Assembly (NCBI GenBank): GCA_030630935.1
Contig: DAOVMD010000112.1
Location: forward strand, 1 to 8,526
Direction of reading: 5' to 3'
From: Candidatus Mcinerneyibacteriota bacterium
Lineage (GTDB): Bacteria; AUK180; JAQVHJ01
Length of the DNA stretch: 8,526 bases
The notes beneath the pieces are model-generated. The model did not search any database. It was not told the DNA's origin and worked only from the letters and a program-made list of their open reading frames with translations. This document shows positions 3,680-7,599 of the stretch, piece by piece. Numbering within the stretch: position 1 is the first letter of the stretch; the number at the start of each line of letters is the position of its first letter. The position numbers and the translations under genes were made by a program.

Positions 3680-3712
3680 AAAAAAAAAGGGTTGACCAAT
3701 TGGCCAACCCTT
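3680..3712 (-). terminator. Rho-independent terminator of the cysteine-rich cassette
   Basis: Read on the minus strand, AAGGGTTGGCC, loop AATT and GGTCAACCCTT form an 11-bp stem with one G-T wobble, followed directly by a run of T bases (plus-strand A run 3680-3688). It lies 26 bases after the stop of the last cysteine-rich gene. A weaker T-rich stretch on the other side could make it partly bidirectional. Confidence 0.88.
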
Positions 3713-3737: not shown

Positions 3738-3953
3738 CTAGAGTAGTGAATCATCACCACCACAGAATTTTGGATCTTCTGAACAAAGTGCGCACATTGT
3801 TACATACTCTGTACCACATGCATTTTCCTGTGGGCATGGATTACCATTAAATAATGCGGGGCACTTCTTACATACTGCATAATTGTTGCAATGTCCTAAT
3901 GCTGGGCAGTAGGAATAATCTTTTTTGCTTTCTGGGGTTACTATATACTTCAT
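3738..3953 (-). CDS. Cysteine-rich peptide, tandem copy 3 (distal)
   Basis: This is the last of three tandem paralogues and encodes 71 aa. The ATG at 3953 is preceded by GAGGAG, 6 bases upstream. There is no signal peptide or membrane segment. The first 15 residues (MKYIVTPESKKDYSY) are shared with the other copies; then come nine cysteines at about 16, 22, 28, 31, 40, 46, 54, 57 and 64, including two CxxC pairs. It is the most divergent copy: H for N at 21, F for G at 35, N for S at 44, T for E at 48, and a different tail (CGGDDSLL instead of CPPDSI). The gene is followed by a strong terminator. I do not recognise the family with certainty. Small size, tandem copies and conserved cysteines recall ribosomal peptides matured by radical SAM enzymes (the MKYIV start is reminiscent of the Clo7bot group, from memory), or a metal-binding peptide; no maturase is in view. 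Confidence 0.85.
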   Translation of the reverse strand: MKYIVTPESKKDYSYCPALGHCNNYAVCKKCPALFNGNPCPQENACGTEYVTMCALCSEDPKFCGGDDSLL

Positions 3954-4241
3954 TTACTTCTCCTCTTTTTGGTTTTTGGTTATTATTACAAATTAAATTG
4001 AATCTGGGGGACAGAATTTTGGATCTTCTGAACAGAGTGCGCACATTGTTACGAACTCTTCACCACATGCACTTTCCTGTGGGCATGGATTACCATTACC
4101 TAATGCGGGGCACTTCTTACATATTGCATAATTGTTGCAGTTACCTAATGCGGGGCAGTAGGAATAATCTTTTTTGCTTTCTGGGGTTACGATATACTTC
4201 ATTTACTTCTCCTCTTTTTGGTTTTTGGTTATTATTACAAA
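3954..4241 (-). repeat. Tandem duplication with identical 39-bp spacers
   Basis: The cassette repeats with a period of 249-255 bp. The spacers 3954-3992 and 4203-4241 are identical over all 39 bases and carry the ribosome site GAGGAG plus an ACCAAAAACCAAAAAG tract on the minus strand. The genes on either side differ at roughly 7 percent of bases. Confidence 0.9.
3993..4202 (-). CDS. Cysteine-rich peptide, tandem copy 2
   Basis: The middle paralogue encodes 69 aa with ATG at 4202 and the same GAGGAG ribosome site 6 bases upstream. All nine cysteines are kept. By eye it differs from copy 1 at four residues (S9 for N, I27 for V, F50 for Y, P66 for S) but at about 14 bases, so most changes are silent. 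The half-repeat CPALGN occurs twice (16-21 and 31-36), suggesting an internal duplication that makes two related cysteine knots or clusters. The 39-bp spacer to copy 3 is identical to the one between copies 1 and 2. The likely setting is the cytoplasm, because no export signal is visible. Function is unknown; a modified-peptide precursor or a metal-binding protein are the two readings I consider. Confidence 0.87.
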   Translation of the reverse strand: MKYIVTPESKKDYSYCPALGNCNNYAICKKCPALGNGNPCPQESACGEEFVTMCALCSEDPKFCPPDSI

Positions 4242-4451
4242 TTAAATTGAATCTGAGGGACAGAATTTTGGATCTTCTGAACAGAGTGCGCACATTGTTA
4301 CGTACTCTTCACCACACGCACTTTCCTGTGGACAGGGATTACCATTACCTAATGCGGGGCACTTCTTACATACTGCATAGTTGTTACAGTTTCCTAATGC
4401 CGGGCAGTAGGAGTAATCTTTTTTGTTCTCTGGGGTTACTATATACTTCAT
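4242..4451 (-). CDS. Cysteine-rich peptide, tandem copy 1 (promoter-proximal)
   Basis: The first gene of the cassette encodes 69 aa. I place the start at ATG 4451: it aligns with the starts of the other two copies, follows GGAGG (9 bases away), and an upstream ATG at 4520 would lie inside the -10 box and could not be transcribed. Nine cysteines, two CxxC pairs (28/31 and 54/57) and the duplicated CPALGN block are present; the segment VTMCALCSEDPKFC is invariant in all copies. An odd number of cysteines means they cannot all pair as disulfides within one chain, which favours metal coordination, thioether cross-links or a free reactive thiol. The untranslated leader is about 54 bases and differs from the spacers before copies 2 and 3. 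The gene is certain; the role is not. Confidence 0.88.
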   Translation of the reverse strand: MKYIVTPENKKDYSYCPALGNCNNYAVCKKCPALGNGNPCPQESACGEEYVTMCALCSEDPKFCPSDSI

Positions 4452-4511
4452 ACCTTGAATCCTCCAAGTTTTGTTATTAGTTAAATATTTCACATAACTT
4501 AATTTTGTATA

Positions 4512-4560
4512 AGTATACATTAAATATCTTCATTTGTCAAGTGTTTTTTTTATTTTTTTT
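4512..4560 (-). promoter_or_regulatory. Strong sigma-70-type promoter of the cysteine-rich cassette
   Basis: On the minus strand a perfect TTGACA (4535-4540) and TATACT (4512-4517, 5 of 6 consensus bases) are separated by 17 bases. Directly upstream of the -35 box are two long A-tracts (4544-4560) that look like an UP element. Transcription should begin near 4505. This is the best promoter in the window and suggests high expression. Confidence 0.85.
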
Positions 4561-6041: not shown

Positions 6042-6110
6042 TCTTTAATGTGTAGCGAAGCGAAACTATGTCAAAGAACGGATTTATATTAAATCATCAA
6101 CATTTTTACA

Positions 6111-6767
6111 TTATTTATTTTCAGATTGTAACCAAGTATTAAAATTCTTTTCCCGGGCTTGTTCTATCATTTTATTTAACGGGATTTTTTCAAGAAAATA
6201 TCTAAAAATATAACCGTACTTTTTATAACTGCCTCTTACAGTACTATTTACAATTTCCCAAATCTCATTCTCCGTAAGTCTAAGTTTGGAGTTACTAAAC
6301 TGACCTGCGGCATGGATTGCAAACCCTTCAAAGAACCAGATAGGTCCCATTGCATCTTCATCACCATCAAGTAATCTGATATGAAATCTATGAGCCATTT
6401 CATGAGTTAATAATTTTTCAAAACTATTCTCTTCGATTCCATCAGGATAATTCTCCGCATATATCTCTGGAGAGATTGTAATCAACCGTCTTTTCTCAAG
6501 AGCAGCTGAAAATGTCTTATCTAATTTAACAGTTGGTTTTAATTCGCAGACTTCTCTAATTATTTTATCAAATTCTTCTTTTGAATCATAGATCTCTACA
6601 CTATCAGCGAAGCTTTCTCCTATGTGATTCTTCCAGTTATTTTCTAATGTAAAAGACTTCAATCTAACCTGGGCTGCAATAAAAACCTGCTCAAATTTCT
6701 GTCTGTCTCCTTCAAGTGAATTAGAAAGTTTGATTGGAATTTTAAATATACCGTAATTCTTATTCAT
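6111..6767 (-). CDS. Cytoplasmic HExxH zinc metallopeptidase (gluzincin-like)
   Basis: The gene encodes 218 aa. I chose ATG 6767 because AAAGGT lies 6 bases upstream; the upstream ATG codons at about 6794 and 6806 overlap the promoter. There is no signal peptide or membrane segment. The zinc site is LLTHEMAHRFH (H122, E123, H126), followed 21 residues later by WFFEGFA with E147 as the probable third ligand. H-E-x-x-H plus a downstream W-x-x-E-G is the pattern of gluzincin peptidases of the peptidase-MA/M1-like kind. The first 100 residues are predicted helix and strand with no motif I can name, and the C-terminal 60 are helical. Substrate and partners are unknown. It has its own promoter with a 5' leader of only about 19 bases and lies between inverted octamer/hairpin blocks, which could mean it moved as a unit. 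Confidence 0.85.
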   Translation of the reverse strand: MNKNYGIFKIPIKLSNSLEGDRQKFEQVFIAAQVRLKSFTLENNWKNHIGESFADSVEIYDSKEEFDKIIREVCELKPTVKLDKTFSAALEKRRLITISPEIYAENYPDGIEENSFEKLLTHEMAHRFHIRLLDGDEDAMGPIWFFEGFAIHAAGQFSNSKLRLTENEIWEIVNSTVRGSYKKYGYIFRYFLEKIPLNKMIEQAREKNFNTWLQSENK

Positions 6768-6792
6768 AATTGTACCTTTAATACTTAAGAGC

Positions 6793-6822
6793 ATTTTAGC
6801 ATACATTTAAATATAAAGTCAA
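6793..6822 (-). promoter_or_regulatory. Promoter of the metallopeptidase gene
   Basis: On the minus strand TTGACT (6817-6822) and TAAAAT (6793-6798, 5 of 6 consensus bases) are separated by 18 bases, with TG one base before the -10 box. The predicted start near 6786 leaves a leader of about 19 bases, just enough for the AAAGGT ribosome site. Confidence 0.75.
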
Positions 6823-6832
6823 GATAAAAAAA

Positions 6833-7098
6833 GTTCAAGATCCAAGAGTTCAAATGTTCAAGTGTTAAAGTGTTCAATAGTTAACAAAACCGTTAAAGTG
6901 TTAAACCAGCTTTGATAGTTAAATCGTTCAAGAGTTAATAAGGCATGCTTCGCATGCGTTCAAGATCAAGGCATGCTTCGCATGCGTTCAAATGTTGAAG
7001 TGTTCAATGGTTCAAATGTTAATAAAAAAGTTCAAAAGTTAATAAGTTAAGATAGTTCAAGTGTTAAAGTGTTAAAGGCATGCTTCGCATGCGTTCAA
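6833..7098 (+). repeat. Degenerate octamer array GTT(C/A)AA(G/A)T with GCATGC hairpins
   Basis: About twenty GTT(C/A)AA words follow one another, most of them 8 bases apart (for example GTTCAAAT, GTTCAAGT, GTTAAAGT). Interruptions usually add a few bases or a whole GCATGC-TTC-GCATGC hairpin; three such hairpins sit at 6943-6957, 6971-6985 and 7078-7092. The hairpins are always preceded by AAGG and followed by GTTCAA or GTTCAAG. No coding frame of interest runs through it. Confidence 0.8.
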
Positions 7099-7105
7099 GT
7101 GTGCG

Positions 7106-7195
7106 ATACTCAAACAACTTTGTTGCTTGAACAGAGAGCAGATATCAGAGAGCAGAGAACAGTCGCTTGATAGATGACTTACAGCTTCGCTGTAA
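7106..7195 (+). repeat. Hairpin/purine-tail module, copy 5
   Basis: Stem CAAACAAC/GTTGCTTG (7111-7129, loop TTT, one mismatch) is followed by AGAGAGCAGATATCAGAGAG and CAGAGAACAG, then TCGCTTGATAG. A strong second hairpin TTACAGC-TTC-GCTGTAA (7179-7195) follows. Confidence 0.68.
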
Positions 7196-7200
7196 ATAAC

Positions 7201-7245
7201 ACAAGGGCACAAGTAACAAGAGCACAAGTAACAAGAGCACAAAAG
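7201..7245. repeat. 15-bp minisatellite, three units
   Basis: Three head-to-tail units of ACAAG(A/G)GCACAAGTA begin at 7201, 7216 and 7231; the last ends AAAAG. A minus-strand frame across it reads as repeated CSCYL, which is an artefact of the repeat. Confidence 0.8.
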
Positions 7246-7405
7246 CGCGCTCAAGTGCTGTGTTTCAAATTCATTTTATTCAAGGAGTAGTCTCATATGT
7301 ATTGAATTATTCTCTTTTTATTTTTTTCAGCGTGTTCAGTGTGTTCAGTGGTTAATTTTTATTTTTACTTTTCTCTTTTTTTATCATTCGGGTGTTTTAT
7401 TTCTT

Positions 7406-7436
7406 ATGGTCAGGGCGCCCGGCCGGTCGCCCCTAC
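7406..7436. repeat. GGGCG-CCGGCCGG palindrome, intact copy
   Basis: GGGCGCCCGGCCGGTCGCCC (7413-7432) is a 20-bp inverted repeat with one mismatched pair. It is flanked by TATGGTCA and CCTAC, which also flank the decayed copy at 4881-4912. It is much richer in G+C than its surroundings. Confidence 0.7.
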
Positions 7437-7437
7437 T

Positions 7438-7492
7438 GCATTGTCATATATAATGCAAATTAATTATCAATTAATAATTATCAATCATAAAT
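7438..7492. repeat. AT-rich element GCATT...ATCATAAAT, copy 2
   Basis: It matches 5157-5212 from the GCATT/AATGC inverted repeat through TTATCAATCATAAAT with a few changes and one base of length difference. It starts two bases after the GGGCG element, whereas copy 1 starts after a hairpin/purine module, so the elements are joined in different orders. Confidence 0.65.
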
Positions 7493-7536
7493 CTTAATTG
7501 CAGAGCGAAGCGATGCTATTTTCCCTGTCCCTGATT

Positions 7537-7568
7537 TAAAAGAAAAGGGCGCCATTGTTGACGCCCTT
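7537..7568 (-). terminator. Rho-independent terminator of the VIT/VWA-family gene
   Basis: On the minus strand AAGGGCG, a 10-base loop and CGCCCTT are followed by TTCTTTTAAA. The hairpin lies about 32 bases after the TAA at 7600. Confidence 0.8.
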
Positions 7569-7599
7569 GTATCTGAATTATGTGTTCAAAACCGGAAGT

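Follow-up and report, generated by a model that had tools for sequence, protein, structure and literature searches.

The window, that is, the whole 8,526-nucleotide stretch that was analysed (contig C275), contained three tandem genes on the minus strand that encode short cysteine-rich peptides. Precursor gene 1 (4242..4451) encodes 69 aa, with an MKYIVTPE leader, a Cys-rich region and the module VTMCALCSEDPKFC; precursor gene 2 (3993..4202) also encodes 69 aa and is 94% identical to gene 1; precursor gene 3 (3738..3953) encodes 71 aa and ends in CGGDDSLL, which resembles the CGFDDLL and CGSDELL termini of relatives. Nine cysteines occupied residues 16, 22, 28, 31, 40, 46, 54, 57 and 64 in all three peptides, and a GGAG-type ribosome-binding site (RBS) preceded each of the three starts, so that the tandem arrangement, fixed cysteines and ribosome sites described in an earlier note were all confirmed, with the genes intact. 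No signal peptide was apparent by eye, as that note had also claimed. The spacer between genes 1 and 2 (4203..4241, minus strand), which bears the RBS AGAGGAG, was a 39-mer identical to the spacer at 3954-3992, suggesting a recent tandem duplication.

The pN/pS values between copies were 0.10, 0.21 and 0.37, most differences being synonymous, which points to purifying selection on the peptides and, together with the homologues found in other genomes, argues that the array did not arise by chance. The automatic ORF call for gene 1 gave 92 aa from a start at 4520, 23 codons too early; the start at 4451 is likelier because of its RBS and its agreement with the paralogues and homologues. A 208-aa plus-strand ORF running across the array (3854-4480) was discarded as an antisense by-product of the repeats.

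A sigma-70-like promoter site (4512..4540, minus strand; TTGACA, 17 nt, TATACT; 11 of 12 matches) preceded the array, and an intrinsic terminator-like hairpin with an 11-bp stem and a T-run (3687..3712, minus strand) lay directly after gene 3; the region scanned contained no second site of this kind. These sites suggest that the array may be one short transcript, and they are regarded as no more than suggestive because they showed no enrichment over shuffled sequence. On both sides the contig carried other, unrelated genes (3.7 and 4.1 kb), and examination of the ORFs and a Pfam search revealed no radical SAM, ATP-grasp or transporter gene in the window. Short repeats, among them GGCATGCTTCGCATGCGTTCAA and TTCAAGTGTT, occurred many times over in the intergenic region at 6800-7260.

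Homologues of the peptides and their gene neighbourhoods

No Pfam family matched the window peptides at E values up to 1, and no PDB chain at E values up to 10; the zinc-ribbon or ferredoxin-like relative that the earlier note had named as evidence against its own proposal thus did not appear. Within the own genome, a metagenome-assembled genome (MAG) of 3.16 Mb in 471 contigs and about 80% complete, only these three copies were found. Homologues were present in three relatives of the same class (G001, G002 and G003), and a further one was found in a Holophagales (Acidobacteriota) MAG, UBA2201 (locus L055), where a maturase with 43% identity follows it about 1 kb downstream. No relatives were found in viral contigs and plasmids, and a weak match in G015 (E 0.0085) was rejected, as it lay antisense to a formate-tetrahydrofolate-ligase-like gene.

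The homologues shared an MK[YF]IxTP leader and one or two copies of a TxCxxCxEDxx[FA]C module, in which the Thr, the three Cys, the Glu and the Asp were invariant in 13 of 13 modules; the skeleton C..C.ED..C turned up in no more than about 0.1% of shuffled peptides. Each window peptide has a single, C-terminal module, and its six other cysteines lie in a stretch that contains two CPAL repeats. Outside the module the homologues differed in the number and spacing of their cysteines.

The maturase and the ATP-grasp ligase adjoined precursors in three of the four homologue-bearing genomes (G002, G003 and L055), and an ABC exporter set did so in G001, G003 and L055; of the two kinds of partner that the earlier note had proposed to look for beside homologues, radical SAM/SPASM enzymes and transporters, both recurred. 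On contig C102 of G002, two precursor genes were divergent from genes for a 306-aa protein, a 458-aa radical SAM/SPASM protein and a 312-aa ATP-grasp protein, and the same gene order was found on C3 of G003; the 306-aa position in both genomes corresponds to a second ATP-grasp-like gene. Contig C2 of G003 carried ABC, HlyD, AhpD-like and protease genes with another precursor at the contig end, and the ends of C2 and C3 would be compatible with one cluster broken at repeats. In G001, a precursor was followed by AhpD-like, HlyD and ABC genes on C14, and the maturase and ligase were on C351.

The Holophagales locus presented the run precursor, 238-aa protein, maturase, ATP-grasp, HExxGH protein, PrdB-like, HlyD-like (assigned by eye) and ABC transporter. 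Its 238-aa protein occupies the place of the 306-aa protein (20% identity by alignment), and its HExxGH protein is 17% identical to the protease of the own genome; the HMMs found neither. The gene at L055:10914-11669, inside this cluster, resembles the D-proline reductase subunit PrdB (98 bits, cut-off 300), and the cluster is without the AhpD-like gene present in the other genomes. The PrdB-like and AhpD-like proteins may both be thiol redox partners.

Searches of the own genome detected, side by side on C320, a maturase (55% identical, E 2e-123) and a ligase (48% identical, E 1e-93), and ABC, HlyD, AhpD-like and HExxH protease genes grouped together on C192. The earlier statement that the peptides have no obvious partner therefore holds for the window and fails for the genome. 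The own maturase is cut by the end of C320, its N-terminus and CxxxCxxC site lying beyond it; searches of the own genome for this N-terminus and for the second ATP-grasp-like protein gave nothing specific, and the gene order of the relatives suggests that both lie just past the broken end. An HExxH gene within the window (6111-6806) was set aside as a leader protease, since the exporter-linked protease is on C192. Following the C320 ligase and a 98-aa response-regulator-like gene, a nitroreductase/BluB-like gene (L032:234-791) might encode a further modification enzyme or be unrelated. Two other contig ends of this genome (L033:1-939 and L034:3711-4349) carried mutually similar fragments of a radical SAM maturase of another type, with no clear precursor near them.

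In this assembly the precursors lie apart from the enzyme genes, which counts against reading the array as part of a biosynthetic system. It seems somewhat probable that the array genuinely stands alone as a substrate locus, served by a maturase in trans, and is not a fragment of a single cluster that the assembly broke up, since unrelated genes of C275 lie on both sides and the array has its own promoter-like site and terminator; against this, the precursors of the relatives are close to partner genes. Because the assembly is fragmented, the MAG cannot show the distances between precursors and enzymes.

The enzymes and their relation to known systems

The maturases of G002, G003 and G001 (STE_202) contained the motifs CNFRCEYC and CxxCxxxPICMGGC, corresponding to radical SAM and SPASM sites, and the own maturase scored above the cut-off for a SPASM domain. 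The best NCBIfam model was the Clo7bot maturase TIGR04334 (cut-off 600), with 361.5 bits for the full-length G002 protein, 324.6 for the L055 copy and 261 for the truncated own copy; Clo7bot, which the earlier note had named as an example, was thus the best model for the enzyme found beside homologues. The second-best family, the TIGR04463 maturase of C-rich RiPPs, gave 320 bits against a cut-off of 525, and CefB, geopeptide and PapB maturases completed the nearest families. The SCIFF, CcpM, CefB and geopeptide maturases belong to the same broad SPASM peptide-maturase superfamily, all scoring below their cut-offs here. Maturase, ligase and precursor alike remained below every specific curated cut-off.

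The ligase reached the Pfam RimK threshold (46 vs 21 bits) and scored below cut-off with the curated graspetide models TIGR04187 (78.9, cut-off 350), TIGR04192 (27, cut-off 230) and TIGR04184/04185. It belongs to the RimK/graspetide-like ATP-grasp group, and may either form an ester or amide or add an amino acid. The second ATP-grasp-like protein matched the ligase along most of its length in a profile comparison (95% probability over 272 columns); its AlphaFold model was too poor for use (pLDDT 46). The C-terminal E-x-N of the ligase (ECNSSPM/EANSSPM) is replaced by QMTPSPD in this protein, which may therefore be a non-catalytic partner. The protease carries HExxGH, and in Foldseek its model came closest to a functionally uncharacterised Shewanella lipoprotein (E 0.003) and, at E 0.04, to a DUF885 structure, each with probability 1.0.

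A radical-SAM cysteine-rich RiPP whose ATP-grasp proteins, instead of cross-linking the core, add residues in the style of RimK, MptN or LysX, or act elsewhere, is conceivable but less probable than not. In its favour, the bit scores of the own ligase were nearly the same for the MptN glutamate ligase (71.2), graspetide-type TIGR04187 (70.6) and the RimK family (67.0), none of them reaching its cut-off; against it, none of the 13 modules departs from the Thr, Glu and Asp that an ester or amide link needs, although radical-SAM chemistry could also explain the Asp and Glu.

The likeness to Clo7bot (TIGR04333/TIGR04334) consisted of its being the best-scoring maturase family (361 bits over the full length) and of its short Cys-rich precursors, and the N-terminal 24 residues of one window peptide gave a sub-threshold match to the Clo7bot precursor model TIGR04333 (8.4 bits, E 1.9, cut-off 31), the other two copies giving no match. 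Unlike Clo7bot, the present maturase and precursor do not reach these cut-offs, ATP-grasp, AhpD-like and HExxH protease genes accompany them, and the precursor has the TxCxxCxEDxx[FA]C module.

Ranthipeptides carry a thioether from Cys to a non-alpha carbon, such as the Asp beta carbon, and what may correspond to this here is the sequence pattern C-x-E-D of all 13 modules. PapB joins Cys to Asp or Glu over 0-6 residues (PMC9413430), which makes C-x-E-D a plausible cross-link site. As in PapA/PapB, Cys lies close to Asp/Glu, and the maturase is related to PapB, although its 149 bits fell short of the NF047865 cut-off (340); the PapA motifs are CX3D/E.

Bacteroides clusters with ATP-grasp and SPASM enzymes have been described (branch 5, PMC8939145), so that the combination of enzymes has a precedent. 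These clusters, represented by the TIGR04192 grasp-with-spasm family, resemble the present ones in having ATP-grasp and SPASM proteins in one cluster, HlyD-type export and, in some cases, precursors with conserved Thr/Ser, Asp/Glu and Cys; the conserved Thr/Ser and Asp/Glu of a graspetide core are likewise found in our module. They differ in the low TIGR04192 score of the present ligase, the lack of a GG motif here and the Clo7bot-group maturase: maturase type, precursor and host phyla are all different. A literature search, with most subscription journals outside it, returned no such maturase/ATP-grasp hybrid and no mention of Clo7bot, TIGR04334 or grasp-with-spasm. By cut-off, then, the system is neither Clo7bot, nor PapB-type, nor a curated graspetide, and it appears to work like a radical-SAM cysteine-rich RiPP with an ATP-grasp step.

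Distribution of the genes and a proposed pathway

Of the seven genomes in the class, four carried precursor and maturase together and three carried neither, a small sample in which two genomes of one genus are not fully independent. In an HMM scan of 93 loci, 90 of them with a radical SAM gene, strong ligase matches came only with a single clade of five maturases (SH-aLRT 94), and precursor matches only with this clade and at the exporter loci of the family; the next-nearest maturases (Aminicenantes, Zixibacteria, G272 and G142) were without such a ligase. Small RBS-preceded ORFs starting with M[KERNQ][YFWKMLIV][ILV]xxP were counted in the scanned loci: the 463 kb lying no more than 2 kb from a radical-SAM gene contained 41, and the other 711 kb of these loci contained one, an approximately 60-fold enrichment near maturases of the group, suggesting that MKYIVTPE is the family's form of a leader start common to this maturase group. 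Five of the 41 come from the family described here, and a few of the 41 resemble chance ORFs.

Two further observations were made. In Caldisericota (L076-L078, and L083 at about 6100-7590), tandem precursor-like ORFs of 104-111 aa with 15-16 Cys (MKWIVNPMDEF..., MNWIVKPG...) adjoined a maturase of the same group. On a Desulfobacterales contig (L050:3552-8984), four consecutive, related radical SAM maturase genes were accompanied by a 45-aa ORF starting MEWIVEPEDE.

The earlier note had proposed either precursors of radical-SAM-modified peptides or metal-binding proteins; the former option was supported by the homologues beside the maturase, and the latter found no Pfam or PDB relative. A reading in which the peptides stay unmodified and serve as small redox or metal-binding proteins (zinc or iron-sulfur), the maturase cluster being coincidental, is highly improbable: nine Cys with CxxC spacings and no enzyme adjacent on the contig would fit, but the homologues vary in Cys outside the module and adjoin maturase or exporter in four other genomes, and the presence of the peptide tracks that of the maturase in the class.

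The short precursors have a conserved leader and a variable core, and modification enzymes are adjacent in the relatives and encoded in the same genome here, as is generally expected of a RiPP system. We consider it very probable that the peptides are RiPP precursors, modified by the maturase and ligase of C320, trimmed by the protease and exported by the C192 proteins, even though the window peptides have extra Cys outside the shared module. The N-terminal MKYIVTPE would be the leader recognised by the Clo7bot-related radical SAM/SPASM maturase, which would form thioether (sulfur-to-carbon) cross-links from Cys, plausibly to the nearby Glu or Asp of the CxED motif. The ATP-grasp ligase, accompanied in relatives by the second, degenerate ATP-grasp-like protein, would either form an ester or amide bond or attach an amino acid, by way of the invariant Thr and Glu/Asp of the module. 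Removal of the leader would fall to the HExxH protease, and the ABC/HlyD pair would export the product, which could act as an antibiotic, a signal or a metal-binding compound.

A more specific version, which we hold tentatively as falling somewhat short of probable, is that TxCxxCxEDxx[FA]C is doubly cross-linked, by radical thioethers from Cys and by an ATP-dependent Thr-Glu/Asp ester or amide, and that it defines a distinct RiPP class with one active and one degenerate ATP-grasp protein. If true, such a module would be a compact peptide scaffold. The gene sets L020/L021/L022 and L055 could be expressed in E. coli, and the leader pattern offers a simple way to find precursors, even far from their enzymes. 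The orphan trio of peptides would thus become the substrate of an identifiable and apparently undescribed pathway, which occurs in an uncultured lineage and in Acidobacteriota.
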